Assembly: GCA_029262415.1 (NCBI GenBank)
Contig: JAJCZL010000075.1
Span: forward strand, 1-51,510
Reading direction: 5' to 3'
Length of the DNA stretch: 51,510 nucleotides
DNA from: Deltaproteobacteria bacterium
GTDB lineage: Bacteria; Desulfobacterota; Binatia; UBA1149; JAJCZL01
Part shown: positions 5,243-51,058 of the stretch, piece by piece
Layout: every line of letters starts with the position of its first letter
Numbering within the stretch: position 1 is the first letter of the stretch
Notes under the pieces: model-generated
What the model saw: the letters and a program-made list of their open reading frames with translations, nothing else
Databases searched by the model: none
Told to the model about the DNA's origin: nothing
Position numbers and translations under genes: made by a program

Positions 5243-6592
5243 ATGAGTAACCACATTACTCGCAAGTTTTTGGCGGGTGTTACCGCCCTCTCACTTGCAG
5301 CTTTCTACACAGGCTGCAGCAGCGGCGGCGGTGGCGCCACGTTTTTCTGGGGCATCCTCGGCACCGGAGCTAACACATGCTCGAGCGTAATCGTTCGCAT
5401 CGACCTGGCAGCAGCGGGCGCGACAGACGAACAGCTCAACTGCGCGAGAGCCGCTCTCATCGGCGCTGGTTGCACGGTAGACGAAGTTGAAGTTTCGCCG
5501 GGGAGCGGCATCTGGGATGTCACCATCAGCGGTTGTAACTTCTCCGATCTGAGCGACCTGTTCACCTGCACGGTCAACGGTGTTTCGGCATCAGACCTAG
5601 ATGAGTTCTCGGATATTGTCGGTGACAACTGCGGCGGCGGAACGCCTCCTCTCGCTGTCGACGACACCCCGGTGGTGACCACCACAACCACCACGCAGGC
5701 GCCGACGACAACCACGACGGCACCTCCGACCACAACCACAACCGTGTTCCCGGACACAACCACGACCACTGTCGGCGGCACCACGACGACGGTCCTCGGC
5801 ACCACGACGACGGTCCTCGCGACCACGACGACGCTCGGCGTGACCACGACGACGCTGGCCGGGGCGACCTTCGACGTCGTTTACGGCTTCGACTTCCCGA
5901 TGAGCACTGTTGGCGCTCTGCAGATCGACAGTGACTACTCGGGGGCGGGCGGTGAGTTTGACGGAACCGGGGCCAATGTCGCATGCGCCAAGGCTGCGGG
6001 TTTCACCGCACTCGAAGCGTTCAACGACAACGACACCGGTCAGGTTGTCTCGCAGGGCTTCGCCGATAGCGCCGGATTCGCGGCACCTCGTGTGCTTTCG
6101 ACCTGCCGCTTCGTCGACGCCGACGGCACGCCCCCGGCACCGAGCGCTTTCGTCAACACGACGGTCGACTGCTCGGATCTGAACTCCCAGCCGGTGAACT
6201 GCTTCACCAGCGTTCAAAGTGTCACGGCCTGCGCATGCGGCGACTCGACGGTCAACTGCGTCACCGAGAACTGTGACAACGGTGCGTCCTCAGCGACCAA
6301 CACCTGCGGTGACGGAACCGTTAACTGCAGTGCTTGCACCGACGAGCAGTGCGACGACGGCAACGCGACCGACGACGGCAACGGCTGCTCGGCCGACTGC
6401 CAGGACAACAGCACCTGCGGCAACAACATTGTTGAGTCCGCATTCGAGCAGTGCGATGACGGCGGTAGCTGCCAATTCGGTAGCAACCCCGGTGCTGCTT
6501 GCACGTTGCCTGCCGGTGCCGAGTGCACGGGCGGATTCTGTCAGACCCAGAGTGGCGACGGCTGCAGCAGCACCTGTCAGACTGAGCCGTAA
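5243..6592 (+). CDS. Lipoprotein with Thr-rich linker, cohesin-like module and Cys repeats
   Basis: 449 residues. The N-terminus has a lipoprotein-like signal with Cys at residue 25 (AAFYTGC). A roughly 110-residue N-terminal domain follows, then a Thr-rich linker (about 145-205, many TTTTT runs separated by AP or GG). Next is a module at about 208-310 containing TVGALQ and LSTCRF, shared with the lipoproteins at 9183, 9769 and 11095 and resembling a cohesin core. The C-terminus carries DEQCDDGN..GDG/NGCSADC repeats of the DUF4215 / myxococcal disulfide-repeat type. Thr-rich linkers of this kind are commonly O-glycosylated in surface proteins. AAGGAG precedes the start. A strong terminator at 6632 makes it a separate transcription unit. 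Likely surface exposed. Confidence 0.8.
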   Translation: MSNHITRKFLAGVTALSLAAFYTGCSSGGGGATFFWGILGTGANTCSSVIVRIDLAAAGATDEQLNCARAALIGAGCTVDEVEVSPGSGIWDVTISGCNFSDLSDLFTCTVNGVSASDLDEFSDIVGDNCGGGTPPLAVDDTPVVTTTTTTQAPTTTTTAPPTTTTTVFPDTTTTTVGGTTTTVLGTTTTVLATTTTLGVTTTTLAGATFDVVYGFDFPMSTVGALQIDSDYSGAGGEFDGTGANVACAKAAGFTALEAFNDNDTGQVVSQGFADSAGFAAPRVLSTCRFVDADGTPPAPSAFVNTTVDCSDLNSQPVNCFTSVQSVTACACGDSTVNCVTENCDNGASSATNTCGDGTVNCSACTDEQCDDGNATDDGNGCSADCQDNSTCGNNIVESAFEQCDDGGSCQFGSNPGAACTLPAGAECTGGFCQTQSGDGCSSTCQTEP

Positions 6593-6985: not shown

Positions 6986-8971
6986 ATGCCAAACTCGAAG
7001 ATTATTTCAGCCCTGACCGGACTCGCAGCTGCTGCGATGTTGGTCATCCCCGCCGCGGGTTTCGCGGCACAGGGCGACTGCGGACAACCGATATCGGACG
7101 GCTCTAACCCGACTGCAACCGACGCGAGCGTAACCTTGCGCTTTGCGGTGGGCGCCCTATCCGCGTGCAGCGACTTCGGCCCTGACTGCATCTGCGACGT
7201 TAACGACAGCGCCAGCACCACCGCGAGCGATGCGCTCCTCGTACTGCGCAAGGCGGTCGGCCAGCCCGTCACGCTTGACTGCGGTGCAGCCTGCACGACG
7301 ACGACGACTATATCGATAACGACAACGACGATAGGCGCGACCACGACCACCACGCTGCCACCCAATGGTGCTCCACGTTGCAGCTCCGGCGAAGTCATCG
7401 CCCTGGTGGGCGGCGTGATCGATTCCGGTTGGGCCGGACCGGGTCACAACCAAGACCTGATCAGCGGTGCGCGTATCAGCGCAAAAGCCGTGCGTCGCTG
7501 CGAGAACCTGACCACCGGGGCCCGTGGCGCTGTTTGTGTGCAGGACAGCGAATGCGCCGTCGGTACCGAACGCTGCCTGGTTGCTTGTAACTGTAACAAC
7601 CCGCAGGACTCGACGTGTGAGATCACCGGGCCTACCCACGAGCAGAACTGCACGATCACCCTCGATTCGTGCACCAGCGACGGCGACTGCGGTATATCGG
7701 GCGGAACCTGCAGAAGGTTCTTCGGCGGTCCGCTACCGTTGGCCGCGGCCGGAACCCCGGTTTGCGTCACCACGTATTTCGCGGGCGACATCAGCGGAAC
7801 AGCCGATGCGTTCAGCGGCGAACTCGTTGCCGACTTTGCGCTGCGATCGCGAGTGCACGCAACCAACATCGACCACCCCTGCCCGATTTGCGACACCGGC
7901 GGTACGCCGGCGGTCGGCGACACCGGTACGTGCGTAGGCGACTCGCAGAAGACGGGTTTGCCCTGCACGGTAACATCGATCCACCCCGAGTTCGGTGCTA
8001 CCTCACCGGATTGCCCGCCGCAGCCCGCCCAGAACGTGTCGGGCATCGGCCTGTCGGTTCTGTTCCGCGGGGCTACGACCAACACGGCGTCCAAACAGGC
8101 GACGCTCATCTGCTCGGATAACCCAATCCACCCTAACGGCCAGGTTGGAGGATTCTGCGCGGATGACGTCGCGGTTGGCGTATTCGACACACCGTGCTCG
8201 AGCAACGCCGATTGCTTGCATTGCACCGACGATCCTACTGTCGGTTGTACGACGAACGGCGACTGCGGTGCCGGTGGGGCCTGCGCTGCGGCCCCCGAGC
8301 AGCCCATCGCGTGCGGGTTCTACTGCCACGTCGGCTTCTGTAAGGGAGCCGGGCCACAGGATCCCGACCAGCCGTGCTTCGCCGATAGCGACTGCACGGG
8401 CGGCGATACCTGCGTGCCGGGCACCGGAGGCGCGACTTCCGCCAACGCCCCGCAGCAGTTGCCGAACGACTGCTCCAACACGATCTGTGGAGCAGAGTCG
8501 CCCGAACAGTGCGGATCCGGCGACACCCTGGGTGTGTGCGATGTGAAGACCTACATCCCGTGTACCGTCGACTCGCAGTGCACCCAGCAAGGCGCGGGCA
8601 CGGTCTGTAACTTCATTCCGAAACCCTGCTTCGAAGCGGTGATTTCGGCAACCGGCAGCCCGTCGCCGCTCGGCTCGTTCTGCTCGGAGCAGGACCCGCC
8701 GACCGTATGCACCACCAACGCCGACTGTGGCGGAACGTTGTGCCGCGACGATACGTCGGTACCGGGGGTGGTAGCCATCTTCCCGATCCCGGCAACCGCG
8801 TCTTCGGCAGTCAACGGCGCGGCCGGTCTGACCGGCCCGGGCCGCGTCAGCCTCTCACAGATCCTACTGGCCTGTCGCTGCGGCGACGGCACCGCGGGCT
8901 GCGACGAGGAGTGTGACGACGGCAACGACATCGACGGTGACGCGTGCACAAACGTTTGCACGCTGCCGTAG
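6986..8971 (+). CDS. Cys-rich secreted protein with N-terminal dockerin-like module
   Basis: 661 residues with GGAGG 7 nt before the ATG. A signal peptide ends near FAAQG. Residues about 31-98 hold two dockerin-like loops: a degenerate first one (SDGSNPTATDASVTLRFAVG) and a clearer second (CDVNDSASTTASDALLVLRK), ending GQPVTLDC. The same arrangement is intact in the protein at 49577-51058. A Thr-rich linker (about 101-128) follows. Residues 130-640 are homologous along their length to the Cys-rich protein at 577, with shared blocks such as IDSGW/LDNGW, PVCVTTYFAGD, SPDCPPQP..SGIGLSV and AGLTGPGR. The end is a DEECDDGND..GDAC repeat. Probably an extracellular disulfide-bonded protein that could dock through its N-terminal module. 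Confidence 0.85.
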   Translation: MPNSKIISALTGLAAAAMLVIPAAGFAAQGDCGQPISDGSNPTATDASVTLRFAVGALSACSDFGPDCICDVNDSASTTASDALLVLRKAVGQPVTLDCGAACTTTTTISITTTTIGATTTTTLPPNGAPRCSSGEVIALVGGVIDSGWAGPGHNQDLISGARISAKAVRRCENLTTGARGAVCVQDSECAVGTERCLVACNCNNPQDSTCEITGPTHEQNCTITLDSCTSDGDCGISGGTCRRFFGGPLPLAAAGTPVCVTTYFAGDISGTADAFSGELVADFALRSRVHATNIDHPCPICDTGGTPAVGDTGTCVGDSQKTGLPCTVTSIHPEFGATSPDCPPQPAQNVSGIGLSVLFRGATTNTASKQATLICSDNPIHPNGQVGGFCADDVAVGVFDTPCSSNADCLHCTDDPTVGCTTNGDCGAGGACAAAPEQPIACGFYCHVGFCKGAGPQDPDQPCFADSDCTGGDTCVPGTGGATSANAPQQLPNDCSNTICGAESPEQCGSGDTLGVCDVKTYIPCTVDSQCTQQGAGTVCNFIPKPCFEAVISATGSPSPLGSFCSEQDPPTVCTTNADCGGTLCRDDTSVPGVVAIFPIPATASSAVNGAAGLTGPGRVSLSQILLACRCGDGTAGCDEECDDGNDIDGDACTNVCTLP

Positions 8972-9182: not shown

Positions 9183-9749
9183 ATGACCAAGCCTCTGAGT
9201 ATCCTGGTGGCTACCGTGGTGTTCGCCTGCCTTACCACAATCACGGCCTGCGGCCCCAGCTTGGGTGACCAAAAGCGCTACACACTGACCGTTGAGTTGG
9301 CTGCCAACGGTGGCCAGAGCATCGGTGGGCTGGTTCTCAAGATCACCTATGACAACGGCGAGATCTGCGGTACTGGTGGAAGCGTCTCATGCGTGCGCGG
9401 CGGTGACGTTGACAGCGCCGTGCTCGACGACGAAGAAGATGTGGTAGACAGCAACGTGTTCATCTTAAATGCCCAGATCGACAAAAGCGCGGTGATGAAC
9501 GTCGGCGACGACCTCCTCACCTGCACCTTCGTGTCTTCGGTTACGCCGTCTAACAATAGCTTTGTCTTCAAAATTCAAAGTGCGACCGACACCGGCGATG
9601 CGACCATCCCTACCGCCGACCTCGAGACCGTAAGGTTCATGGTGCGCTCGGATGACGGCACCGCGGGCGACTGCACTGGGACCACCGGCGCGACCACGAC
9701 CACGACCTCGATCGTGACCGCAACCAGTACCACGATGGGTCTGCCCTGA
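9183..9749 (+). CDS. Small lipoprotein with a single cohesin-like module
   Basis: 188 residues. The signal has a canonical lipobox, ITAC, with Cys at residue 23. Residues about 35-150 are one beta-rich module: YTLTVELAANG, SIGGLVLKITYDNG, and LLTCTF near its end. That order matches cohesin cores, in which a G-x-L-x-F/L strand is followed by Y-D and a late hydrophobic-T-x-F strand. The same module is in the lipoproteins at 5243, 9769 and 11095. The C-terminus is a short Thr tail (GATTTTTS). No strong Shine-Dalgarno is visible. It is 19 nt from the next lipoprotein and probably co-transcribed with it. The cohesin assignment is by pattern only. Confidence 0.75.
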   Translation: MTKPLSILVATVVFACLTTITACGPSLGDQKRYTLTVELAANGGQSIGGLVLKITYDNGEICGTGGSVSCVRGGDVDSAVLDDEEDVVDSNVFILNAQIDKSAVMNVGDDLLTCTFVSSVTPSNNSFVFKIQSATDTGDATIPTADLETVRFMVRSDDGTAGDCTGTTGATTTTTSIVTATSTTMGLP

Positions 9750-9768
9750 CCGCTTGCGAGGCTCCGCC

Positions 9769-11010
9769 ATGCGAATAAACTCCAGCCTCATCTACGCAAT
9801 CGCGACCGCAGCTGTTCTTTGCCTGGCCACGGGGTGCGTAGGCAACTCGGCAACACCGGTCGACGTTGTCATCCAGTTGCCGGGTCCGGCGCAGACGCTG
9901 TCGAAGGCCGTAATTGAGGTCGACTACTCGCGTTCGGGCGCGGTACCGGCCGGTGGGCGCAGGCCTTCGTGTACGGCGCTGCTCCCATATCTGGACGCGA
10001 CCTTCAGCGACGACGGCCGCAACCGGCTGATCATCGACGTGAGTTCCCCGCAGGGGTTCTCCGCCCCCGCCGATCTCGTCGCCTGCCGGATGCTCGCGAG
10101 TAAGGGCAACGAAGACGCCGGCCGCATCCAATCGCGGCTGGCGGTGCGTGTCGACAGCGCCTTGGACATGGCCGGCCAAGCGGTCGGCGACAAGCGGCTC
10201 GCAGGTTTGTCCTCACGGATCCAGACCCGCGCCGACCGCCACGCGCCCCGAGAGGAAGCCGGGAAGTCCTCACAACAGCGGCGCAACGCCCGCAGCGCAG
10301 AGTCACGCGAGCGCGGAGCAAGCGCTGATCAAGCCGCCACAGAGCGCGCAAGCGCGAGCGGCGTGCGCGAGTTGCGCCCCAGCGGACGTCCGGCAGCGGC
10401 ACCCGAGGGGCGACCGGCTGGACGCATCGCAAGTGCAGCCGCGGATACCGGCGCCGCAGCAACAGCCGAGCGCTCGCGTGCAGGCTCGCCTCGCGATGCC
10501 GTGCGCGATGCGGTCGCCGGGGCAGCCCGAGCCAACGCACCCTCCGGAGGCGGCCCGCTGGATGACGGCGCTTCGGCCGCCGATTCTGGGTTGGGCCGGG
10601 CCAACACCGAAATCCCCTCCGGCGTCGTCCCCAATGTCGGTCCCACGTATAGCTACGAAATCACCCTGTCGGTACTCAACGACTCGGGCGAACTCGGGGC
10701 TTTGCAGGTTGACGTCAGCAACAGCAGTGGCGGCGGCTTCGTCGGCAACGGCGATTCGGTCGATTGCACAAGCTTGCTGGGCGGTGCTCTGGTCGCCTTT
10801 AACAACCGCGACGGCAAGCTGCGCGCGGGGTTCATCGCGACCAACGGCATCGCCACCCCCACCCCGATCGCCTCGTGCCGGTACAAATCGCGCACCGACG
10901 TCACCTCTGGGTCTTTCAGCGTGGCGGTCACCGACTCCAGCGACACCAACAGTCAGCCGGCCAGTCCTACTCCATTTGTCGCGGTCAGCGACGTGCAGTT
11001 GATACGCTAG
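9769..11010 (+). CDS. Lipoprotein with two cohesin-like modules and Ala/Arg-rich spacer
   Basis: 413 residues from the ATG at 9769, which has GCGAGG 6 nt upstream; a TTG at 9754 is the alternative. The signal ends CLATGC with Cys at residue 23. A divergent first module (about 28-140, with SKAVIEVDYS and LVACRM) is followed by an unusual low-complexity spacer (about 145-285) rich in Ala, Arg, Ser and Glu. A clear second module (about 293-400) has GELGALQVDVS, ALVAFNNRDG, IASCRY and GSFSVAVTDSSD. The spacer is very GC-rich and open in several frames. The second module is most like the one at 11095. Probably surface anchored; binding partners unknown. Confidence 0.75.
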   Translation: MRINSSLIYAIATAAVLCLATGCVGNSATPVDVVIQLPGPAQTLSKAVIEVDYSRSGAVPAGGRRPSCTALLPYLDATFSDDGRNRLIIDVSSPQGFSAPADLVACRMLASKGNEDAGRIQSRLAVRVDSALDMAGQAVGDKRLAGLSSRIQTRADRHAPREEAGKSSQQRRNARSAESRERGASADQAATERASASGVRELRPSGRPAAAPEGRPAGRIASAAADTGAAATAERSRAGSPRDAVRDAVAGAARANAPSGGGPLDDGASAADSGLGRANTEIPSGVVPNVGPTYSYEITLSVLNDSGELGALQVDVSNSSGGGFVGNGDSVDCTSLLGGALVAFNNRDGKLRAGFIATNGIATPTPIASCRYKSRTDVTSGSFSVAVTDSSDTNSQPASPTPFVAVSDVQLIR

Positions 11011-11094: not shown

Positions 11095-11628
11095 ATGGTA
11101 GATTACCTCCGTCTTCTAGACACGCGGCTTTGTCTACGCGCGACAATCACCGCCGTCGCCACGCTCGCGTTGATGTCCGCCGCTGGGTGCCAATCATCGG
11201 GCACTCCGACCTCGAGCGGTGACGCCGGCTTGACCACAGCGGCGACCGCTACAGAGCCCAAAGGCGACGCCTACTTGCTTACACTCAACGTCTCGAGCAA
11301 TTCGGGCAGAATCGGAGCACTTCAGTTCGAGATCAAAGGTGATGTCGGCGGCTTTGCCGGCGGCGGTGCCGAGGTCGAGTGCGACAGCATGATAGACGAG
11401 GCTTTGGCCGCCTTCAGCCGTCACGAGCCCACGCGCGTCGTCGGTGCGGTAATTGATGTCGCAGGCTTTGACACACCGGCGGCGGTCGCGCGTTGCACCT
11501 ACGTCGCCGAGTCCGAGCCGGGCGCAGGCGCGTTCTCGGTCAAGGTCACCGAAGCAAGCGATGTCAGTGCACAAGCGCTCGCCTCGGCACCGACGATGGT
11601 CGTCAGCAGCATCCAGCGCGCTGAGTAG
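11095..11628 (+). CDS. Small lipoprotein with cohesin-like module
   Basis: 177 residues. GGAG lies 8 nt before the ATG. The signal ends LMSAAGC with Cys at residue 32, followed by a Ser/Thr-rich stretch. The module at about 58-170 has RIGALQFEIKGDVGGF, VECDS, ALAAFSRH, VARCTYV and GAFSVKVTEASD. It aligns closely with the second module of the preceding lipoprotein. Two conserved Cys (VxC and AxCxY) could form a disulfide. A TATAAAT box lies at 11044-11050, but its -35 partner is unclear. The gene runs directly into the next (membrane/TPR) gene and is probably co-transcribed with it. Confidence 0.75.
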   Translation: MVDYLRLLDTRLCLRATITAVATLALMSAAGCQSSGTPTSSGDAGLTTAATATEPKGDAYLLTLNVSSNSGRIGALQFEIKGDVGGFAGGGAEVECDSMIDEALAAFSRHEPTRVVGAVIDVAGFDTPAAVARCTYVAESEPGAGAFSVKVTEASDVSAQALASAPTMVVSSIQRAE

Positions 11629-11638
11629 AGCCGGCGGC

Positions 11639-13540
11639 TTGCCGCAGCAAGGCCGGATACGCGCGAACGTCCACGCCGCCGTCACCGCAGCGATCGTCGT
11701 TTTGAGCTTTGCCGCGTTCGGCCGCGGCATTCCGAGCAGCTTCGTCTCCGATGACACCAACGCGATCCTCGCCAACCAGTACGTAACAGCAAACGCATCG
11801 ACGGCCCGCATCTTTGCAAACTACTCTTGGTGGGGTGCCCAGCGGGCCGACGCACGCGGCTACCGCCCGCTGACAACGTGGACGTTCGCACGTAACTACC
11901 AATCGTTCGGCGCGATCCCCGCCCCGTTCCACGTCATCAATATTCTCATTCACATCGGCGTTTGCGTCGCCGTTTATGCGCTTGCTCTAGCGCTCGGCAT
12001 CACGCAACCGGCAGCCGCGTTCTCGGCGGCAATGTTTGCCGTCATGCCGATCCACAGCGAAGCGGTGGTGTGGGCGGTGGGACGTGCCGAGTTGCTTGCC
12101 GCGTTGGGTTTTCTCGGCTGCCTACTGGCCGGGCTGCGCGTCATGCGCGGTGGCCACGTGGTTTGGGCGGTCTTGTCGGCTGCAGCCCTGCTGCTCGGCG
12201 CTTTCTCCAAGGAGAACGCCGTCACCGCCCTTGCGGGCCCCTTCATCGCCTATATCTGGATCGGCCGGTCACCCGACCTCGGCCCCAAGGCCTCTGCCCG
12301 CCAACCGTCGAAAGCCCAGGCACGAAGCCGCGCGGCCATATGGTTCGCAGCGCTTTGCCTGGGACTCGGCGTCTATCTGCTGATCCGCGCTGCGGCCGGC
12401 GAGATGATCGGCGGCACGGCGGCTAATCAGTTGGACAACCCCATCGGCTTACTGCCGTGGCTGCAACGCCAGGCCGCCGCGCTCGCGGTTTTCGGGCGCT
12501 ATCTGTGGCTCTCGCTAGTACCGTTGGGACTGAGCGTCGACTATTCATTCGATGCTCTCGGCGTCGGCAGCGGCACCCACAGCGGCTTTTTCGCCGACCG
12601 TTACAGCCTGCTCGGTGCGCTCGGCGTGGCCGCGGCAAGTACTGCCGCGCTGGCGGGGCTGCGTGCGCAGAGGTGGGCCGCGCTCGCGGCAGCAACCGTG
12701 TTGTCACTGGCCGCGTTCTCGATCGTCTCCAACACTGTCGTGGTGATCGGCACGGCAATGGGCGAGAGGCTCTTCTATCTCCCCAGCTTCGGACTTTGCA
12801 TCGCGGGCGGGCTGTTGTTCGGCGCAGCTCGCGAACGAGTACCCAAAGCGGCGGTGATCGTCGCCGTACTCGTCATACTCACCTACACCGGCGCATCCGC
12901 CGTTCGTTGCGGCGACTGGCAAAGCCCGATCACGCTGTTCGAAGCGGCGGTCGCCGCCCATCCACGCAGTGCGCGTGCGCATATGGAGTTGGCATCTGCA
13001 TACGGCCACGCCGGTGCGAGCGACGCAGCCTTACAACACTTCGGGCTCGCGCTTTTGATCAAACCTGATTACGCGGCAGCGGCATACAACAGAGGCAACA
13101 TGCTCGCGCGCGTCGGCCGTTACCCCGAGGCCGCACAGTCTTATGAATCTGCAGTGTCGGCCAAACCCCGCTGGTACTCGGCTGTCTACAACCTCGCGCT
13201 CGTCAAACGTCTCCAAGGCGACGACGCAGGCGCACTCGAGGTACTCGAAAAACTTGAATCGGGGTCACGACCGGCTGCAATCGAAATGCTGCGCGGTGAG
13301 ATTCTCCTTGCCGACGGACGCAACAGCGAGGCGATCGAAGCCTTTACCCTTGCGCTTTCGGCCGGCGCCGAGTCGAGCACGGCGCTGATCAACCGCGGTG
13401 TGGCCCGCGAGAGACTGAGCGGCTGCGCCGCCGCGCTCGAGGATTACGACAAGGCCGCCGGCCAACCGGGAGCCGCGCCCCAGGCCGCGCAGAACGCGGC
13501 CGCATGCCGACGGGTGCTCGGCCTAAGCGGCGACCCTTAG
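11639..13540 (+). CDS. TMTC-like GT-C membrane protein with C-terminal TPRs
   Basis: 633 residues from a TTG at 11639. An upstream ATG at 11453 would add a Ser/Arg-rich segment overlapping the previous gene and is unlikely. The N-terminal half has about ten hydrophobic segments and the hallmark order of the TMTC/DUF1736 family: SFVSDDTNAILANQYV, YRPLTTWTF, FHVINILIH, FAVMPIHSEAVVWAVGRAEL and FSKENAV. The SDD near the first membrane segment is where GT-C enzymes carry their catalytic acid. The last 200 residues are TPRs (ARAHMELASAYGHAG, AAAYNRGNMLARVGRY). Eukaryotic TMTC proteins O-mannosylate secreted beta-domains; this bacterial member is uncharacterised. Its place after Thr-rich lipoproteins suggests it may glycosylate them, which is inference. 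Confidence 0.8.
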   Translation: MPQQGRIRANVHAAVTAAIVVLSFAAFGRGIPSSFVSDDTNAILANQYVTANASTARIFANYSWWGAQRADARGYRPLTTWTFARNYQSFGAIPAPFHVINILIHIGVCVAVYALALALGITQPAAAFSAAMFAVMPIHSEAVVWAVGRAELLAALGFLGCLLAGLRVMRGGHVVWAVLSAAALLLGAFSKENAVTALAGPFIAYIWIGRSPDLGPKASARQPSKAQARSRAAIWFAALCLGLGVYLLIRAAAGEMIGGTAANQLDNPIGLLPWLQRQAAALAVFGRYLWLSLVPLGLSVDYSFDALGVGSGTHSGFFADRYSLLGALGVAAASTAALAGLRAQRWAALAAATVLSLAAFSIVSNTVVVIGTAMGERLFYLPSFGLCIAGGLLFGAARERVPKAAVIVAVLVILTYTGASAVRCGDWQSPITLFEAAVAAHPRSARAHMELASAYGHAGASDAALQHFGLALLIKPDYAAAAYNRGNMLARVGRYPEAAQSYESAVSAKPRWYSAVYNLALVKRLQGDDAGALEVLEKLESGSRPAAIEMLRGEILLADGRNSEAIEAFTLALSAGAESSTALINRGVARERLSGCAAALEDYDKAAGQPGAAPQAAQNAAACRRVLGLSGDP

Positions 13541-13584
13541 GCATAGTTGCAAACCGGGCCGACCGCCGTTAAGAATCAGCCCTT

Positions 13585-14883
13585 GTGGCCCCGCCAAACC
13601 AAGGCTCAGCAGAAGCCGGTCACACGCGGGCCCGGCTGCGATTGTCTCGGCTGCTGATCGCAGCAGCAGTGGTTGCGTGCATCGGCTTGGCGGTCTCGCT
13701 CGAGATCGTCTATGTCCACGGGCGGATCTCTGCGCTCGGCAAAGAGTACACCAGTTTTTGCAACGTAAATGACACGATCAACTGCGACCGTGTCCTGGGC
13801 AGCCCGTTCTCCAAGCTCTTCGGCATCCCGGTGGGGTGGTTCGCCCTGGCGACCTATGCATTCCTGGCAGCCGCTTTCTGGACCGCGCGTAACCGTATAG
13901 GCGAAGCCGCCGCCGCCAACCTGACCCTGGCCGGACTCGGCGTTGCCGGAGCCGGCGCATTCTCGGTGTACATGGCCGGGATCAGCTATTTCGAGGTTCA
14001 CGCGGTCTGCCTGCTGTGTTCGGGGCTCTATGCCGTAGCCGCAACTCTTGTCGGGCTGATGATCGCGATCATCGCGGCGTTCAGAACAGCGTGGCCGCGC
14101 TTGGGCCCGATGGTCTCGATCGGCGGCTTCGCGGGCGCATTGGTGTTCTCGGGCTTGGCCGTAGCAGGCCTGGCCTGGGCGACTTGGCCGAGCGTCGCAA
14201 CACTCGATGCCTCGTTGGTCACGCTCGAGGACGTGCGCAAGGCTGACCCGGATTTCTACACCTGGTACACCAACCACAGGGTCGTGGATCCAGGAGTTGC
14301 CGATCGCAACGCGATCGGCGCCGCAGGCGCCGCGGTAACGATCGTCGAGTACGCAGATCTGCAGTGCGGTCACTGTCGTAAGAGCCACGAGAAGCTAAAA
14401 GGGCTGCTCGAGCGTCGTCCTGATGAGATCCGCCTGGTTTATCGACACTTTCCGCTCGACGTCGCGTGCAACGAAGCGGTCAAGCAAACCATCCACCGCT
14501 TCGCCTGTCGTGCCGCTGAGGCCGCAGAGTGCTCCGCTCTGCAGGGTAGGTTCGCCGAGATGCTTGATCGTCTGTTCGCCAAACAGAACGTCTTGTTTGA
14601 CACCACCATCATGCGCATCGCCACCGACCTCGGTCTGGATATGGAGAAGTTCGCAGGCTGCATGGCCTCAGGCGAAATGCGCAAACACATCACCGAGGAC
14701 TCACGCTGGGGCAAAAAGCTCGAAATCAAATCTACCCCAACGCTGTTCTTCAACGGACGTGAGATCAAAGGCTCGTTTGATGCAGACGCCAACTACGACT
14801 ACGCGGTCTTGATCGAGGCCGGCCTGGCCGCGGCCGGCGCAGGTACAGAAGCTGCAGCAACTACCGCAGTGGTCGACAACTAA
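13585..14883 (+). CDS. VKOR-DsbA fusion, disulfide bond formation
   Basis: 432 residues with a GTG start. The N-terminal half is a four- or five-helix vitamin K epoxide reductase domain with the loop pair Cys59/Cys67 (FCNVNDTINC) and the active CLLC at 142-145. The C-terminal half is a DsbA-type thioredoxin fold: active site CGHC at 261-264 (YADLQCGHC), helix YRHFPLD, and cis-Pro segment KSTPTLFFNG. In such fusions VKOR passes electrons from the thioredoxin domain to quinone and so drives disulfide formation in exported proteins. It lies 44 nt after the TMTC-like gene and within a cluster of very Cys-rich exported proteins, which are its obvious candidate clients. All key Cys are present. Confidence 0.93.
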   Translation: MAPPNQGSAEAGHTRARLRLSRLLIAAAVVACIGLAVSLEIVYVHGRISALGKEYTSFCNVNDTINCDRVLGSPFSKLFGIPVGWFALATYAFLAAAFWTARNRIGEAAAANLTLAGLGVAGAGAFSVYMAGISYFEVHAVCLLCSGLYAVAATLVGLMIAIIAAFRTAWPRLGPMVSIGGFAGALVFSGLAVAGLAWATWPSVATLDASLVTLEDVRKADPDFYTWYTNHRVVDPGVADRNAIGAAGAAVTIVEYADLQCGHCRKSHEKLKGLLERRPDEIRLVYRHFPLDVACNEAVKQTIHRFACRAAEAAECSALQGRFAEMLDRLFAKQNVLFDTTIMRIATDLGLDMEKFAGCMASGEMRKHITEDSRWGKKLEIKSTPTLFFNGREIKGSFDADANYDYAVLIEAGLAAAGAGTEAAATTAVVDN

Positions 14884-15213: not shown

Positions 15214-15519
15214 GTGAGCAGCTTCTACACAGCACAGAACACAGCGCAGAGCGCCCCGGAAACCAACCAAGAGGCGCGCCGACCGTTGATGGAAGAAAGG
15301 AGCCCGAGCGAAGCCGAACGCCCGCGCCTCAACCTCACCGAGCGTGAGAAAGAGGTCCTTCGTTTGGTCTGCGACGGTTTGACCAATGCGGAGATCGCAA
15401 CCTCGCTGCACGTCTCGCGCGAGACCGTCAAATCGGAACTCAAGCGAATCTTTCGTAAAATCGGCGTCGCCAACCGTACTCAGGCAGCGGTGTTGTTGGT
15501 CCGTCAGCGCCTCGTCTAA
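15214..15519 (+). CDS. Small LuxR-type HTH regulator without receiver domain
   Basis: 101 residues. The last 65 form a GerE/LuxR DNA-binding domain: LTEREKEVLRLVCDGLTNAEIATSLHVSRETVKSELKRIF, with the invariant E, LT-E-E-VL, G-T-N-EIA and V-S-T-V-K positions. There is no room for a receiver, PAS or autoinducer domain. It is either a stand-alone GerE-type regulator or pairs with a separate sensor. The GTG at 15214 is the first start after the AAGGAG; an ATG at 15289 directly before the domain is an alternative. The 16-bp palindrome just upstream may be its autoregulatory site. It sits between the VKOR-DsbA gene and the S41 protease gene, so it could control envelope genes. Confidence 0.85.
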   Translation: MSSFYTAQNTAQSAPETNQEARRPLMEERSPSEAERPRLNLTEREKEVLRLVCDGLTNAEIATSLHVSRETVKSELKRIFRKIGVANRTQAAVLLVRQRLV

Positions 15520-15597: not shown

Positions 15598-18282
15598 ATG
15601 ACCCCCCCTGACCACAGCAGCGCCGAGTTCCGGCGCGCCCGCAAACTACGAGTTCGGGGGAAAAGCCGGCGTACCGCCGCGTCAACTCTTGCATTGTACG
15701 CGCTGTGCTCGGTTGCCTCGGGGGCCGTTTGCCTGCCGCCGACTCACGCCCATGGGCAGGGCTCAGCGGCGATCGCCAACGGCCTGAGCCTCGTCAATCG
15801 CTATTACCTCTTCTATGACGAGGTCGAGACCGCGGAGATCCTCGAGAAGGCGCTCGAAAGAATCGAGAACCGTCTAGGCCCCGTTCATGCGGAGGCCCTC
15901 GGGGGGCGCTCGTTCATGGTATCGGCCGGTCGTTGCCGGTTACGCGTCGAGGCACCGCCGTCCGCCGACATACGCACGCTGCTGGAGCCGCTGAAGGCGG
16001 TCGTTGACTTCCTAGAAAGCTGCGTTGGAAAATTCCCCGACGAGCTGCCCCCCGCAGACCTCCTTGTCTTAGACGGCGTCCTGTCGGCGCTCGACCCGTA
16101 CTCAACGGTGCTCGAGGGTAAACGCCAGACCGAACACAGCATCCAATTTACCGGCAAGCTCGCCGGGATTGGTGCACGGATCGGAGTGCGCGACGGCAAC
16201 CTGTCGCTGGTCGAGGTGTACGAGGGTTCCCCGGCCCACAAGGCCGGGCTGCGCGACAACGACACCGTCATGCGCGTTGATGGCCTGTCAACAACAAACA
16301 TCCAGGTCGGCGATGCCGTGCAGCGTATCCGCGGCCCCGAAGGCACACCGGTCGTGCTTACGATCGAACGGTCCGGCGAAAAGGAACCGCGCGACGTCAC
16401 CGTAACCCGCGGGGTGGTGACGATCCCATCGGTCACAACCAAGCTCATCGGTGGCGATATAATCTACGCCGAGATCTCGCATTACAGTCAGACCACCCCG
16501 CAGGACTTCCGTACCCGCGTCGGCAAGCTGGTCGCCGAACATCCTGTCAAGGGCGTCGTTATCGATGTGCGCACGAACTCGGGCGGAAGCATGCTCGGAT
16601 CGGCAGCGATCGCCGATCAGTTCTTGTCCTCGGGCACGCTGATCACCACCGCGGGGCGCGAGGGTCGCAGCGTCAGCGGACTCAGCTCGCAGATTAAAGC
16701 GACCTACGACACCCCTTTTGAAACGATTCCAGTCGCTGTCCTCACCGCACGACGCACCGCCTCCGGCTCCGAACTCATGGCGGCGAGTCTGCGCAACCAT
16801 GATCGTGCCATCCTGGTCGGTGATCGGTCCTTTGGAAAAGGAACCGTGCAAAAGACCTTTCGCATAGGTAACGGCGCGGTAGCGAAGCTGACCGTCGGGC
16901 ACTTCTTGCCCAACGAGAAACCCATTCCAGGCGGCGGAATGATTCCCGATATCGAGGTGGTGGCGGTGCGCGCCAACGCCGATACCGCCTGGATTCCCGA
17001 CCACCAGCCCAACGACCTCCCCTACTGGCTACGACGGCCGGCGTGGTCGGAGGACATCGCCCGTCACCCGATCGTGCGCATCACCGGCTTCGAGGTGCTG
17101 CCTGAGCGCGAGAAAGCCGATCAGGCCCACCCCGAGTCGGCGGCGTCGCTGGAGGCCGAGCCCCACGATCTGGCTCTCGAGGTCGCCGCAAGGATCTTGC
17201 GGCGCTTCCCATCAACCTCAGCCTCACGGATGCTCGATTTCGCGCGGGTGATCCTCAGCGAATCGGTTGACCAAGCCGACACCGAGCTCAGCCAAGCTCT
17301 GCAGAAGTACGGCCTTGACTGGGAGCGCGGACCGCGGGCCGCCGGCGAAACCGCGCTGAAACTCGAACTCGATGGACCCGGCGGCATGCGCGCCGGCGAG
17401 GAGGCAACGGTGCGCTTGCAGGTAACCAACCTCGGCACGCAGCCGGTTTACAGACTCCGCGCGCGTATCGAGTCGGAAGCCGGGCTCGTCAACCAACGCG
17501 CACTGCTGATCGGAAAGATCGCGCCCGGCGAGACCGGGAGCGCGCATATACGCGTCACACCGTCTGCGCGCACTCACACCGGTCGTCTCGAGGCCAAGCT
17601 GCAGCTATTCGACGACCACGGCCATATTGAAGAGCAGGGACCGTTCTTCCTTGCGGTCGACGGCACCGAGCCCGCTCACGTACGCTTTCGCAAACAGGTC
17701 ACCGACACCGACGACCCCGGCGTTGTGAGCGTGAACGTCGAGATTGGAAATCCGGGCAACGTAGCCGCCGAAAACCTCACCGTCACTCTCGAGCCCGACC
17801 TCGAAGGCGAATACGAGTTACTCGACGGCACTTCGACCATTGACAGAATCGAACCCGGCGAGGCTGAGAAGGTGAGTTTCCGAGTGCAGCTGCTGAGAAC
17901 GTTTGAGAAGCCGAGAACCACCAAGCTGAGTATCGTGAGCGCGTACTCAGAAGTCTTTTTGGAAAACGCGGTAGCGCTGGTTACCGGTGACAGCGGATTC
18001 GGCCGATGGTTGGAACCACCGCGGGTTGCCTTCGAAACCATCGAACCAGGCGCAGACACCGGCGAGTTCGCGATCCGCGCACGGGTGACCGATGAAACCG
18101 GCCTGCGCGAGATCCATGCCCGCATCGGCGGCAACCAGGTCGAACGCGCAGTCTCGGGGCAAGACCACCGGCGCGAACTCGCGCTGTTGCTACCGTGGCA
18201 ACCGAGCCTAGGCGTCAAACGCTACGAGATCACCGCCACCGACAGCGACGGCCTCAAGGCCTACTACACCGCGGGGATGTAA
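15598..18282 (+). CDS. S41 carboxy-terminal processing protease with C-terminal beta domains
   Basis: 894 residues. An N-terminal signal or anchor segment is followed by a helical region and a PDZ domain (about 180-260; GSPAHKAGLRDNDTVMRVDG). The S41 protease core (about 275-450) has the nucleophile Ser389 in TASGSELMAA and the general-base Lys414 in SFGKGTVQ, exactly 25 residues later as in Tsp/CtpA. The 440-residue C-terminal extension includes two NEW3/CARDB-like beta domains (GEEATVRLQVTNLGTQPVYRLRA and DPGVVSVNVEIGNPGNVAAENL). This is far longer than ordinary Ctp proteases. It probably cleaves exported protein C-termini in the periplasm, possibly those of the Cys-rich neighbours. It converges on the parvulin gene, with a 13-nt gap. 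Confidence 0.9.
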   Translation: MTPPDHSSAEFRRARKLRVRGKSRRTAASTLALYALCSVASGAVCLPPTHAHGQGSAAIANGLSLVNRYYLFYDEVETAEILEKALERIENRLGPVHAEALGGRSFMVSAGRCRLRVEAPPSADIRTLLEPLKAVVDFLESCVGKFPDELPPADLLVLDGVLSALDPYSTVLEGKRQTEHSIQFTGKLAGIGARIGVRDGNLSLVEVYEGSPAHKAGLRDNDTVMRVDGLSTTNIQVGDAVQRIRGPEGTPVVLTIERSGEKEPRDVTVTRGVVTIPSVTTKLIGGDIIYAEISHYSQTTPQDFRTRVGKLVAEHPVKGVVIDVRTNSGGSMLGSAAIADQFLSSGTLITTAGREGRSVSGLSSQIKATYDTPFETIPVAVLTARRTASGSELMAASLRNHDRAILVGDRSFGKGTVQKTFRIGNGAVAKLTVGHFLPNEKPIPGGGMIPDIEVVAVRANADTAWIPDHQPNDLPYWLRRPAWSEDIARHPIVRITGFEVLPEREKADQAHPESAASLEAEPHDLALEVAARILRRFPSTSASRMLDFARVILSESVDQADTELSQALQKYGLDWERGPRAAGETALKLELDGPGGMRAGEEATVRLQVTNLGTQPVYRLRARIESEAGLVNQRALLIGKIAPGETGSAHIRVTPSARTHTGRLEAKLQLFDDHGHIEEQGPFFLAVDGTEPAHVRFRKQVTDTDDPGVVSVNVEIGNPGNVAAENLTVTLEPDLEGEYELLDGTSTIDRIEPGEAEKVSFRVQLLRTFEKPRTTKLSIVSAYSEVFLENAVALVTGDSGFGRWLEPPRVAFETIEPGADTGEFAIRARVTDETGLREIHARIGGNQVERAVSGQDHRRELALLLPWQPSLGVKRYEITATDSDGLKAYYTAGM

Positions 18283-18295
18283 CGCCCCGAAACTC

Positions 18296-19282
18296 TCAGT
18301 GGCCTACGTGAGGCCGCGCCGTCGGCGCACGTCCTTCGGGAAGTTCCACGTGTTCTAGAACGTCGCGATCGAGCTGATAGTTCGCGGCTTCTTTCACCTT
18401 CGCAAGGAAAGTCTCGGTACCCAAACGTCGGCGCTCGTTGGCCAGCTTGATGCGAACCTGGTTCTTCACCTCTTCGAAGGGACGAACGAAGCCGTCCTCA
18501 CGCCCGGTTCGCTTGATGATGTGGTAGCCGAATCGCGTCTCCACGAGTTTAGAGAGGGCTCCGTCATTGCCGAGCGAGAATGCTGCATCTTCGAATTCGG
18601 TGACCATGCGACCCTTGCCGAAGAAACCGAGATCGCCGCCCTTGGCGGCGTTCGATTTGTCGATCGAATGTTCCTCGGCGAGTGCCTCGAACTTGCTCGG
18701 GTCGGCTTCGATCTGCGCCAATATTTTACTCGCGAGTTCCTCGTCCTTGACGAGGATGTGGCTTGCGCGCACGCGGTCGGTTGAGAACTCGTCACGGTTG
18801 GTGTCGTAGTACGCCTTCACTTCTTCCTCGCCCACCTCTTTACCCTGATGCTCGAGCATCACCTTCTGAATCACTAGGCGCCTTTCAAGATCGTGCACCT
18901 GTTTACGGATGGTGTCATCGCGGTCGTAGCCCAACTCCTTGCCTTTGCCGTAGATCAACTCCTGAACCACCTGGTTCTCGACAAACTGAGCGCGCTTGTC
19001 CATGTTGTTCAGCGTCTTTCGAGTACGGACGTTGAGCTCAGAGACGAGGTCGATGAAGTCCTGGGCGGTTAGTTGGTCTTGTCCGTAGGTCGCAATCACC
19101 CGCGTATCGCCCTTGGAATTCGCCTTGGCCTCGGTCTTGGACGCACCGGCGTCGGTGCCGGTCGGGGCCTGGCAAGCGCTGCCGAGCACGGCGGCCAAAA
19201 AAACCACGGCGGCCCCGCGAGCCGAAAAAGACAGACACGTGCCGGTCAGCCCGGTCAGCCCAGTAAGCGTCGTTACGATCAT
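18296..19282 (-). CDS. Parvulin-type peptidyl-prolyl isomerase lipoprotein
   Basis: 328 residues. The ATG at 19282 is chosen because GGAGG lies 8 nt upstream. The signal contains a small LTG tandem repeat (TLTGLTGLTGT) and ends at lipobox LGSAC (Cys37). A SurA/PrsA-like N-terminal helical region (VENQVVQELIYGKGKELGY) precedes the parvulin domain at about 160-255 (RASHILVKDEELASKIL, FGKGRMVTEFEDAAFSL, ETRFGYHIIK). Such proteins help exported proteins fold near the membrane. It faces the S41 protease gene, a common folding/degradation pairing. A second, unrelated parvulin gene is at 31327. Confidence 0.9.
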   Translation of the reverse strand: MIVTTLTGLTGLTGTCLSFSARGAAVVFLAAVLGSACQAPTGTDAGASKTEAKANSKGDTRVIATYGQDQLTAQDFIDLVSELNVRTRKTLNNMDKRAQFVENQVVQELIYGKGKELGYDRDDTIRKQVHDLERRLVIQKVMLEHQGKEVGEEEVKAYYDTNRDEFSTDRVRASHILVKDEELASKILAQIEADPSKFEALAEEHSIDKSNAAKGGDLGFFGKGRMVTEFEDAAFSLGNDGALSKLVETRFGYHIIKRTGREDGFVRPFEEVKNQVRIKLANERRRLGTETFLAKVKEAANYQLDRDVLEHVELPEGRAPTARPHVGH

Positions 19283-19386
19283 TCGTTTGCCCTCCAAAGT
19301 CCCCATACGATGCCACAACCGACCGCAACCTCAACGGCGGCGGGTGACAACGTTGACTCGACTGCCCCGTGTGGGACCATTCTCGG

Positions 19387-47942: not shown

Positions 47943-49496
47943 ATGAAAGCACCCGAGTCGCTCAGCAACCTGTCACCCAACGACCTGCAACGGCAACGCG
48001 GCAGCACCCTCACGCTGTTCGCCCTTTGCCTTGTCGTAATTTTTCTTACGCTCGGGGTCGTCGTCGATCTGGGAACCGGGTATGTGGCCCGTGCGCGGAT
48101 GTCCAAGGCGATCGACGCGGGCGTCCTAAATGCTGCGCGATACACCTCTCGCGGCGAGAAGGAAATGGAGCGTATGGCGCTCAAGGTAGCGATGGCCAAT
48201 TACGCGCGCTCTTCGGCGGTCAACTACGCGGTCACCATCACATCCCCGCAGATCGACACCCAGCGAGTCCGAATGACCGGCAGTTCCTCGACACCGACGC
48301 GCTTCGCGGCACTATTGGGAATGGCGTCTTTGGACATAGCAACCACTTCCGAGGCCACCCGCTACCCGTTGGACATGAGCCTCTCGCTCGACCTGTCCGC
48401 ATCGCTCGACCGCAACGGCGCGTTCAAACCGATGCAGAACGCCGCCGTCGCATTCCTCCAATACTTCGACGAGGGTATCGATCAGATCGGCGTCAACTCG
48501 TACTCAACCTGGGCGATGGAGAACACCCCCGTACAGAAGTACTTCCGGATCGGGGCAAGCAAGGCGATCAACAAACTCAAATCCATCTCCGACACCAACA
48601 TCCAAGAGGGATTGCGGCTGGCCGGCGAACAGGTGGGACTCGCGCGACAGAGAGAAGGTGCAACGAAGATCATCGTCTTGTTCACAGACGGTCGGCCGAC
48701 TGCTTACCGCGACACCTTCGAGTTCAACGCCAACTACTGCGGCGAACTCGATGCGGTCGTCGGAGCCTACATCAGCGGCAGCAGCTACCGCGGTCTCTTC
48801 GCGCACGACAGTGGCAAAAAGATAATCAACTTCCTCAAACCACCGACCGGTAAAGGAAACCTAAAGGCCGGCGCGGCTCACATCGGCGGCTACCACGCAT
48901 CCAAGACAAACAAGAAAGACAAGCGGGACAAGGACAAGGACGACGGCGACAGCGACACGGATGACGACAGCGACCAGGACGACGATAGCGATGCCGACGA
49001 TGACAGCGACCAGGACGACGATAGCGACGCCGATGATGACAGTGACCAGGACGACGATAGCGACGCCGACGATGACAGTGACCAGGGCGACGATGGCGAC
49101 GACGAAGATGACGACGGGGAGGACGCGCCGCTCTGTGCGCTGAAATACGTATCAAACGCATCCTCTTCAGCATCGCCGAAGCCGAAGCATCTGGGCAACT
49201 GGGGAGCAGTGAACGGCAACAACATACGTGCCGGGGCGATCGTAAAGGCCGAGCAGATGGCCGGCTCGTTGCGTGCCGCCGGGTACACGATCTACGTGGT
49301 CGGCCTCGGCAATCCCAACGCGACGCTCGAAGGCGATCAGCCCGACCTCGAGTTCCTCAAACGTGTCGCCAACCACGGCGGAATCTCGAGCTTAACCCAA
49401 CCACGCGGCGAATTGATCTTCGCACCGTCTACTAAGGAACTGGACGACGCGTTCGCACGTGTCGCCGAGCGCATCCTGACGCGGCTCACGCGCTGA
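47943..49496 (+). CDS. TadG-like pilus-assembly protein with vWA domain and Asp-rich insert
   Basis: 517 residues. The N-terminal TadE/TadG-type anchor is RQRGSTLTLFALCLVVIFLTLGVVVDLG (shown by its part RGSTLTLFALCLVV), followed by the DLGTGYVARARMSKAIDAG helix. The vWA domain has an intact metal site: DLSAS (MIDAS 1), the Thr in SDTNIQEG, and FTDGRP. Within the vWA, between the FTDGRP strand and the YTIYVVGLG strand, lies a Lys-rich then Asp/Ser-rich insert (about 320-395), coded by a 36-bp tandem repeat. TadG proteins link to Flp/tight-adherence pili; vWA domains bind metal-dependent partners. No other tad genes are near. Confidence 0.85.
   Translation: MKAPESLSNLSPNDLQRQRGSTLTLFALCLVVIFLTLGVVVDLGTGYVARARMSKAIDAGVLNAARYTSRGEKEMERMALKVAMANYARSSAVNYAVTITSPQIDTQRVRMTGSSSTPTRFAALLGMASLDIATTSEATRYPLDMSLSLDLSASLDRNGAFKPMQNAAVAFLQYFDEGIDQIGVNSYSTWAMENTPVQKYFRIGASKAINKLKSISDTNIQEGLRLAGEQVGLARQREGATKIIVLFTDGRPTAYRDTFEFNANYCGELDAVVGAYISGSSYRGLFAHDSGKKIINFLKPPTGKGNLKAGAAHIGGYHASKTNKKDKRDKDKDDGDSDTDDDSDQDDDSDADDDSDQDDDSDADDDSDQDDDSDADDDSDQGDDGDDEDDDGEDAPLCALKYVSNASSSASPKPKHLGNWGAVNGNNIRAGAIVKAEQMAGSLRAAGYTIYVVGLGNPNATLEGDQPDLEFLKRVANHGGISSLTQPRGELIFAPSTKELDDAFARVAERILTRLTR
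48960..49103 (+). repeat. 36-bp tandem repeat coding for Asp/Ser-rich insert
   Basis: Four units start at 48960, 48996, 49032 and 49068, each beginning GA(T/C)GA(T/C)GACAG and coding the 12-mer DDDSDQDDDSDA. The first three are nearly identical; the fourth is divergent and merges into another acidic stretch. The period is a multiple of three, so copy changes keep the frame. It resembles acidic calcium-binding repeats. Confidence 0.92.
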
Positions 49497-49576: not shown

Positions 49577-51058
49577 CTAGGTCAGACAGATCAGCGTCAC
49601 CGGTTGCCCCACTCCGAACTGCAACACCAGCAGCGCGTCGGTCGCGTTGATCGCACCGGTACTGTTGACGTCACAGATACTCAATGGACAGCTGCCGGAG
49701 CCGACACCGGTGTTGAGCGTGATCAACGCATCAGTCGAGGTGCGGTTACCGTCGCCATTGGCATCCCCACACAGAGCTACGCCCGGTGTCTCGAAGACGC
49801 GTGCGAAGATTCCGGCGTCGTCACCGTCTTGGTAGCCGAAGCCGTGCCAGGTAACCACGAACTTTCCCGGGCCGAGGTTCGCTACGTCGGGGAAGGATTG
49901 GAATCCAGTAGTGAACTGATTGGCCTGAAACTGCGTGCCGACAGGAACTCCTAAGGCGGTGAATTGACGGACGGCTACCTCGGAGGCCGCAGCACCACCT
50001 CCTGATGCGTTATCAAACCAAGTGACGACGAAACCGCCGGCATCAGCCGCAACAGCCGGGGCTCCCTGATAGCCGACGGTGTTCGCGTTGACACGAAACT
50101 CGGTGCCGACTTTGGAGTTATTTTCGTTGATCCGTTGGCCGAAGATGCCGTTCGCGTCGCCGTCTTGCCCGAAGCTTTCCCATACGACAATGAACGAGTT
50201 GTCAGCCTGTGCCGCGACCGAGGCGAGCGCCTGATCGCCTGTGGTATAGGTGTTGACCAGATACTGTCCCGATCGAACTGTGAAATTCCCGTCGAACGCC
50301 ACAGCGAAGATCCCATAGCTGCCGCTGTCGCGCGTACCGTCGGTGTAGGCGACCAAGAAACTGTCGTTCGCAGCAACTGACACCGACGGTCGGGTTTGGA
50401 TTAACGGCGCCGGCGGGGTGATGAACTTCTCGCCGCCTAGCGGTTGCAACGAAGCGTCGTATCGACGCCCGGCGATGAAGACCTGGTCTTGAAGGCCGCC
50501 GGGCCCATAAAAAGTAGTCTCGTTGTGCCAAACCACGACGAAGCCGCCATCGGGTGCCGGTGCAACATCGGGAAATCCGGTCTTACCAACGGTGTAGGTG
50601 TTGACCAAGAACTCAGTGCCGATCGGAACGCCGTTGGCAGCAAACGCCTGTGCATGAATACCCGAGAGATTGCCGTCCAGACAGCAATCGGATTCATACA
50701 CCACAACAAAGCGCCCATCGTCGAGCACCGCAACGTCGGGGAAACGACGAAACGACAACCGTTCGGTGTTGGCCGTAAGCTCGCCGTCCTGCCGAACGCC
50801 GGCGCCGTTAAAGCGCTGCGCTCCGATGTTGGCTCCGTACTGTCCGCCTATCACACTGTCATCGCGCCACACGACCACGAAGTCGCCGTTTGAGCGGCCG
50901 GCAACGTCGACCGAGATTTGCTTGCCGGCGGCGGTGGTGTTGACTTGAAACTCGTCTCCGAGCGCAACCAGCGGGGTTTGCGCGGCCGACGTCGACGCCC
51001 AAAAGAACGACGCAAGGCACGCGACGACCAGTGTTCGAGATGTCGCCCGGGAGATCAC
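49577..51058 (-). CDS. Secreted propeller-like repeat protein with C-terminal dockerin-like module
   Basis: 493 residues, GTG start without clear ribosome-binding site. The signal peptide ends ASTSAAQTP. Residues about 30-425 are six or seven repeats of about 60 residues following E-F-x-VNT-x-T-x-G-x-(6)-P-x-VA-x(4)-G-F-VV-x-W, often with DGD(A/D)xGIFxxR; this is a beta-propeller or beta-sheet repeat type. The last 64 residues hold two calcium-loop/helix units: DANGDGNRTSTDALITL and DVNSTGAINATDALLVL, bracketed by Cys, ending GQPVTLIC. The D-x-N-x-D-G-(5)-D spacing matches dockerin loops. It could attach to the cohesin-like lipoproteins of the first region. Confidence 0.85.
   Translation of the reverse strand: MISRATSRTLVVACLASFFWASTSAAQTPLVALGDEFQVNTTAAGKQISVDVAGRSNGDFVVVWRDDSVIGGQYGANIGAQRFNGAGVRQDGELTANTERLSFRRFPDVAVLDDGRFVVVYESDCCLDGNLSGIHAQAFAANGVPIGTEFLVNTYTVGKTGFPDVAPAPDGGFVVVWHNETTFYGPGGLQDQVFIAGRRYDASLQPLGGEKFITPPAPLIQTRPSVSVAANDSFLVAYTDGTRDSGSYGIFAVAFDGNFTVRSGQYLVNTYTTGDQALASVAAQADNSFIVVWESFGQDGDANGIFGQRINENNSKVGTEFRVNANTVGYQGAPAVAADAGGFVVTWFDNASGGGAAASEVAVRQFTALGVPVGTQFQANQFTTGFQSFPDVANLGPGKFVVTWHGFGYQDGDDAGIFARVFETPGVALCGDANGDGNRTSTDALITLNTGVGSGSCPLSICDVNSTGAINATDALLVLQFGVGQPVTLICLT

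Follow-up and report, generated by a model that had tools for sequence, protein, structure and literature searches.

The window analysed here, 51,510 nucleotides long, is part of a 3.9-Mb draft genome of the Binatia (G000, contig C75). One strand carries a row of genes predicted to encode cohesin-fold lipoproteins, a secreted cysteine-rich protein (CysT), a membrane glycosyltransferase of the GT-C type resembling the animal TMTC enzymes, and a fusion of VKOR with DsbA:

5243..6592, + strand: lipoprotein whose linkers contain Thr runs, with a single cohesin-fold domain (about 5828-6217; hidden Markov model (HMM) 2.9e-24) and C-terminal Cys-rich acidic repeats, from the translation
6986..8971, + strand: CysT, secreted protein with 56 Cys; signal peptide, predicted N-terminal dockerin (7079-7282), Thr linker, Cys-rich body
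9183..9749, + strand: lipoA, lipoprotein with one cohesin-fold domain (9285-9632) and a Thr-rich C-terminal tail (lipobox; HMM 5.7e-17)
9754..11010, + strand: lipoB, lipoprotein with two cohesin-fold domains (9865-10200 and 10660-10986; HMM 2.8e-25 and 7.8e-32)
11095..11628, + strand: lipoC, lipoprotein with one cohesin-fold domain (11278-11604; HMM 5.6e-29)
11639..13540, + strand: TMTC-like gene with GT-C and tetratricopeptide repeat (TPR) parts, TTG start, 633 amino acids (translation, alignment A2, AlphaFold2 (AF2) model)
13585..14883, + strand: VKOR-DsbA fusion gene, 432 amino acids (Pfam, alignment A3)

A preliminary description of this stretch had set the last two genes back to back, and they are indeed neighbours on the same strand, separated by 44 bases. 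It had also noted proteins full of Cys nearby, which is borne out by CysT and by the product of 5243-6592, with 29 Cys and a myxo_disulf_rpt match. Its statement that the two genes directly follow lipoproteins with poly-Thr linkers is right only in part: lipoB and lipoC are lipoproteins, the latter ending 10 bases 5' of the TMTC-like gene, but poly-Thr had to be rejected for both, as their translations contain no run of four or more Thr. Between the two domains of lipoB lies an Ala/Arg/Ser-rich linker that is likewise free of Thr runs; the Thr linkers are in 5243-6592 and CysT and, as a C-terminal tail, in lipoA. What that reading had missed is the cohesin-fold and dockerin nature of the neighbouring proteins.

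Gene order in relatives, proposed earlier as a check, was compared in 12 further genomes of the same order, which with the window's own represent four families and nine genera. The TMTC-like gene lies directly 5' of the VKOR-DsbA gene in all 12, one of them (G006) being split by contig ends, with contig C20 stopping inside the former gene and C125 starting inside the latter. Since independent genomes show the same locus, an assembly artefact is excluded. In all 13 loci the same-strand gene immediately 5' of the TMTC-like gene encodes a cohesin protein, at a distance of -4 to 28 bases in 12 of them (the start codon is ambiguous in L033). The wider order in the relatives is Thr-linker cohesin protein, dockerin-bearing CysT, cohesin lipoproteins, TMTC-like, VKOR-DsbA, LuxR, S41 and PpiC, and the members absent from it mostly fall at contig ends; counterparts of 5243-6592 lie upstream in L031, L034, L036, L037, L038 and L051. 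The locus proteins are only 38-54% identical among relatives, yet the order of six to eight genes is intact over the nine genera. Elsewhere in the Binatia, none of the eight genomes searched for both genes had a TMTC gene beside VKOR-DsbA.

A domain of about 110 amino acids is common to lipoA, lipoB (twice), lipoC and 5243-6592, and an iterated HMM found 51 copies of it in the stretches examined. Pfam, NCBIfam and PDB sequence searches with this domain returned nothing, and only structure revealed its fold. For an AF2 model of the lipoB segment 10648-11007, built from 49 sequences (predicted local distance difference test (pLDDT) 97.4), the best Foldseek matches were cohesins (E 4.5e-3 for the Archaeoglobus cohesin 2xdh), as were all 50 of the matches listed by VIA-align (Z 11.1 to 7.1), the best of which covers 99 residues at 1.9 A. 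Judged by this model, the domain has the fold of cohesins, which act as sockets for dockerins in cellulosome-like complexes. Sequence identity to solved cohesins is 7-17%, and Pfam Cohesin (PF00963) was matched over its cut-off neither in ten genomes of the order nor among the 49 domains; we therefore call the domains cohesin-fold. Two Cys are invariant in 49 of the 49 aligned domains. No alignment column exceeds 55% Ser/Thr, so no single acceptor site for a sugar stands out.

CysT has an ordinary signal peptide and is not a lipoprotein; its orthologues are 41-46% identical by BLAST. Pfam Dockerin_1 gave no match over the cut-off for the CysT of the window, and its best match to an orthologue had an E value of 0.047. 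A local dockerin HMM, grown from one dockerin of the genome, matched CysT residues 32-99 and the same region in full-length orthologues, and hhalign aligned the CysT N-termini with the remaining dockerins of the order, which are mostly Pfam-positive, at 99.7% (E 2.7e-25, 63 columns). The second repeat keeps the D-x-(N/D)...D loop; that of the first is degenerate in most orthologues and near-canonical in L051. By these profile comparisons CysT starts with a predicted dockerin. Cys residues, four in most cases, are conserved in the dockerins of the order. The Cys-rich body carries a conserved DSGWTG-type motif (alignment A5) and represents an uncharacterised family (6986-8971, L044-L046, L060 and L062).

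The same modules recur throughout these genomes. G000 contains 20 matches to the cohesin family, and the number per genome is 5-34 over the ten genomes of the order tested; in ten other Binatia genomes it was absent from nine and matched twice in the tenth. Pfam Dockerin_1 (E at most 0.001) has 17 matches in G000 and 4-28 in nine other genomes of the order tested, and all ten have matches above its cut-off. Several cohesins may share one chain: besides the two of lipoB, L088 has three and a dockerin, L096 four and a dockerin, and L098 three and a dockerin. In L088 (G000, contig C25, 3053-4876) the arrangement is cohesin, Thr linker, cohesin, Thr linker, dockerin, cohesin, and L096, L097 and L098 in relatives resemble it in their cohesins, Thr linkers and dockerin. 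These four scaffoldin-like proteins are often encoded directly 5' of another cohesin. Ten dockerin or cohesin proteins were scanned for other domains, giving GSDH, BNR and DUF4215 domains, with no classical cellulase among these ten; the dockerin-bearing proteins include a GSDH-type dehydrogenase and one with BNR repeats. Within the window, a 493-amino-acid protein whose C-terminus is a Pfam dockerin (24.7 bits; 49577-51058, - strand) adjoins a VWA/Tad-type protein (47943-49496).

Runs of four or more Thr are present in 19 of the 71 cohesin or dockerin open reading frames against 3 of 250 other reading frames in the same stretches (Fisher p = 4e-11). Genome-wide counts of (ACN)6 exceed a reversed control in 10 of 10 genomes of the order, barely in G005 (34 vs 29) and strongly in G002 (449 vs 8); among other Binatia a large excess was found only in G031 (371 vs 37), whose Thr-rich proteins are of another kind than the cohesin-linked ones.

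The TMTC-like protein has a polytopic membrane domain and C-terminal TPRs. In a PDB sequence search with the alignment of this protein family the 60 matches listed were all repeat proteins, and the best 50 Foldseek matches of its AF2 model (pLDDT 90.6) were again all repeat proteins. VIA-align separated the GT-C part: residues 1-457 match GT-C enzymes and TPR proteins match beyond, with TPR chains aligning to residues 427-633. The highest scores were for yeast STT3 (Z 21.1, 342 residues, 4.3 A), AglB (20.2) and ArnT (19.8), and Pmt4 (17.6) and Pmt1-Pmt2 (17.2) matched over the membrane part. We compared the protein with the motifs published for TMTC1-4 (PMC7801869), motif M6 excepted. The loss of the catalytic acid, named in the preliminary description as a point on which its reading could fail, was not found: the catalytic DD (residues 38-39, 11750-11755) lies in the first extracytoplasmic loop, D38 and D39 are invariant in 12 orthologues, and the pair is conserved at 90% or more in 25 homologues. 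Also invariant in the orthologue alignment are K191, E192 and T196 of KExxxT (its third residue being N), D301 (EL4), and E376, R377 and Y380 of ERxxY. The complete SHKSYRP motif was not encountered; the window protein reads DARGYRP, so that the SHK part of this mannose-contact motif is replaced, while YRP is kept in the orthologues bar one F, with RP invariant. RxD has become RxE and DW has become DY. Pfam TMTC_DUF1736 stays below its cut-off (12.7 bits vs 27), with weak matches in 5 of the 12 orthologues, and we therefore speak of a TMTC-like protein and do not file it as TMTC. Fold and motifs nevertheless indicate that the predicted protein works like a GT-C enzyme. A check by eye of the other TMTC homologues placed some within about 10 kb of cohesins or dockerins (G000:C1, G001:C353, G005:C57 and G007:C89) and most farther off, a weak neighbourhood link. 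On the first of these, the second TMTC-like gene of the genome (L055, 2019-9129) has as neighbours a cohesin-fold protein and a protein of 56 Cys that carries a C-terminal dockerin, and the TMTC-cohesin neighbourhood on G001:C353 resembles it.

The product of 13585-14883 matches Pfam VKOR (75.9 bits, cut-off 27.5) and DSBA/Thioredoxin_4. The VKOR Cys 59, 67, 142 and 145 and the DsbA CxxC (261/264) are invariant in alignment A3, and the cis-Pro motif TPT is nearly so. Four more Cys of the DsbA domain (295, 308, 316 and 359) are invariant, as if they formed structural disulfides. Near-full-length matches were found in 42 of 58 genomes of the class. In other Binatia the VKOR-DsbA gene occurs without an adjacent TMTC gene, and in many of them PpiC stays beside it. 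As a Cys-rich relative of CysT lies near VKOR-DsbA in the Binatia family f9, outside the order, this oxidase was probably linked to exported Cys-rich proteins before the association with TMTC and cohesins arose. A single VKOR was found in 10 of 11 genomes of the order; DsbB was undetected in 9 of the 11, being present only in the window's own genome and in G012.

The locus continues downstream with three further genes:

15214..15519, + strand: small LuxR-type helix-turn-helix (HTH) regulator (GerE Pfam, orthologues)
15598..18282, + strand: S41 C-terminal processing peptidase with a PDZ domain, MXAN_5808-like (Pfam/NCBIfam)
18296..19318, - strand: PpiC-type peptidyl-prolyl isomerase (Pfam, NCBIfam, synteny)

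No protein of the locus is more conserved than the regulator, which has no receiver domain (67-89% identity vs 38-54% for its neighbours); conservation so far above that of the neighbours suggests constraint from its DNA target. The S41 peptidase gene has a counterpart in 11 further loci of the order, and PpiC is encoded near VKOR-DsbA in many Binatia families.

Gene order, predicted folds, Cys invariance, motif conservation and the genome-wide modules together lead us to favour, with moderate confidence, a locus whose products form and mature a disulfide-bonded cohesin/dockerin assembly on the cell surface; from them we infer the cohesin-dockerin binding, the glycosyl transfer and its acceptor, and the identity of the disulfide substrates. 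Cohesin-fold lipoproteins would be exported and anchored to the envelope, and secreted Cys-rich dockerin proteins (CysT, and others encoded elsewhere in the genome) would dock on them. VKOR-DsbA would close the paired Cys of cohesins, dockerins and Cys-rich bodies, and general help with folding and quality control would come from PpiC and the S41 protease. The TMTC-like enzyme would O-glycosylate the exported assembly from a lipid-linked sugar, the target being either the Thr linkers between modules or the cohesin modules themselves. As the lipoproteins coupled to the TMTC-like gene have no poly-Thr, a poly-Thr acceptor is only one of these two options; it has a precedent in the GT39 enzyme of Caldicellulosiruptor bescii. 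Animal TMTCs glycosylate cadherin beta-sandwich domains, and a cohesin-module acceptor would fit both this case and the coupled lipoproteins without Thr runs, but not readily the lack of a conserved Ser/Thr in the cohesin domain. One might speculate, though we think it unlikely, that the enzyme glycosylates cohesin beta-sandwiches and that the TPR-bearing GT-C family was perhaps ancestrally specialised for modular adhesion beta-sandwiches, here paired with a disulfide-bonded cohesin/dockerin system. The preliminary description had proposed a dedicated maturation unit for this secretome. The link of the enzymes to Thr- and Cys-rich exported proteins is well supported, given the synteny in 12 of 12 relatives and the invariant DD. 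The word dedicated is rejected for VKOR-DsbA, which occurs without TMTC elsewhere and, as the only detected disulfide oxidase in most genomes of the order, must serve the cell at large there.

Several observations weigh against the surface assembly. LipoB and lipoC, coupled to the TMTC-like gene, are the very lipoproteins without Thr runs; Thr runs are numerous in G031, which lacks this cohesin family; other Binatia have dockerins without these cohesins (17 against none in G037); and most other TMTC homologues of the order are not near cohesins. The position of the sole detected oxidase of most genomes may, moreover, reflect housekeeping. In that case the TMTC-like and cohesin genes would have landed once by an old VKOR-DsbA/PpiC cluster in the ancestor of the order, and gene order would have been kept by descent and not by shared function. 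The adjoining VKOR-DsbA and PpiC genes of other Binatia families without TMTC, the single VKOR per genome and the rarity of DsbB are consistent with this scenario, which we regard as improbable in view of a gene order that outlasted such protein divergence, of the tightly held cohesin-TMTC spacing in 12 loci, and of the CysT relative near VKOR-DsbA in family f9.

Dockerins without these cohesins in other Binatia also bear on whether the cohesin-fold domains bind dockerins at all. They could be adhesion or ligand-binding beta-sandwiches, the dockerins pairing with an undetected cohesin family, as the low identity to solved cohesins and the lack of Pfam Cohesin matches over the cut-off in ten genomes would allow. 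The combinations dockerin-cohesin and cohesin-cohesin-dockerin-cohesin on single proteins, and the joint presence of both modules in every genome of the order tested, argue for binding and make this alternative doubtful. Lower still do we rate the chance that the TMTC-like enzyme is not a protein glycosyltransferase and modifies a glycolipid or surface polysaccharide, its TPRs binding other partners. One of the closest structures is the lipid A-modifying ArnT, and the replaced SHK and the sub-threshold TMTC_DUF1736 match point the same way; but the protein-modifying STT3, AglB, Pmt4 and Pmt1-Pmt2 score in the same Z range, TMTC-type protein O-mannosyltransferases are likewise built from a GT-C domain extended by TPRs, and in every genome exported proteins with a beta-sandwich are coupled to the gene.

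The main Binatota genome paper (PMC8262859) mentions neither cohesin nor dockerin, and our literature search ranked no paper as combining Binatota with both. The conserved cluster suggests a surface assembly system of these uncultured bacteria that has not been reported. If this assembly is real, it would add a Pfam-invisible cohesin/dockerin system in uncultured Binatota. Two of its features we have not seen described for cohesins, namely that each module keeps a pair of Cys and that a TMTC-like glycosyltransferase is coupled to them at the gene level. The locus also names concrete candidate acceptors for testing the function of bacterial TMTC homologues, poorly understood relatives of the animal enzymes.

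Non-cellulosomal cohesins and dockerins, and scaffoldin-like proteins of ANME archaea, have already been described (PMC9012536). With these systems, including the Archaeoglobus cohesin 2xdh, and with the cellulosome-type systems of Clostridium and Ruminococcus, the proposed Binatota system has in common the predicted cohesin fold, predicted type I dockerin repeats, chains that combine several cohesins with a dockerin, Thr-rich linkers and putatively surface-anchored cohesins. It differs in cohesins that are invisible to Pfam and carry two invariant Cys each, in conserved dockerin Cys, in lipoprotein anchoring, in the carriers of its dockerins, namely Cys-rich proteins, an enzyme of GSDH type and a protein with BNR repeats, and in the coupling to TMTC-like and VKOR-DsbA genes. 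TMTC1-4 are the animal O-mannosyltransferases of cadherins (PMC7801869); shared with them are the GT-C membrane domain, C-terminal TPRs, DD, the RP of YRP, KExxxT, the EL4 D and ERxxY, whereas the SHK of SHKSYRP is lost, RxE stands for RxD and DY for DW, and TMTC_DUF1736 is below its cut-off. In C. bescii, deletion of a GT39 gene near celA left secreted enzymes with Thr/Pro linkers unglycosylated and increased CelA cleavage (PMC6151902); there too a GT-C gene, Cbes_1864, lies near a multimodular exported protein with Thr linkers, but it belongs to the GT39 family and has no link to cohesins or to a disulfide gene. With known VKOR-DsbA fusion oxidases the window's protein shares the four VKOR Cys and the CxxC thioredoxin domain, and it is set apart from them by its genomic coupling, in one order, to cohesin lipoproteins and a TMTC-like gene.

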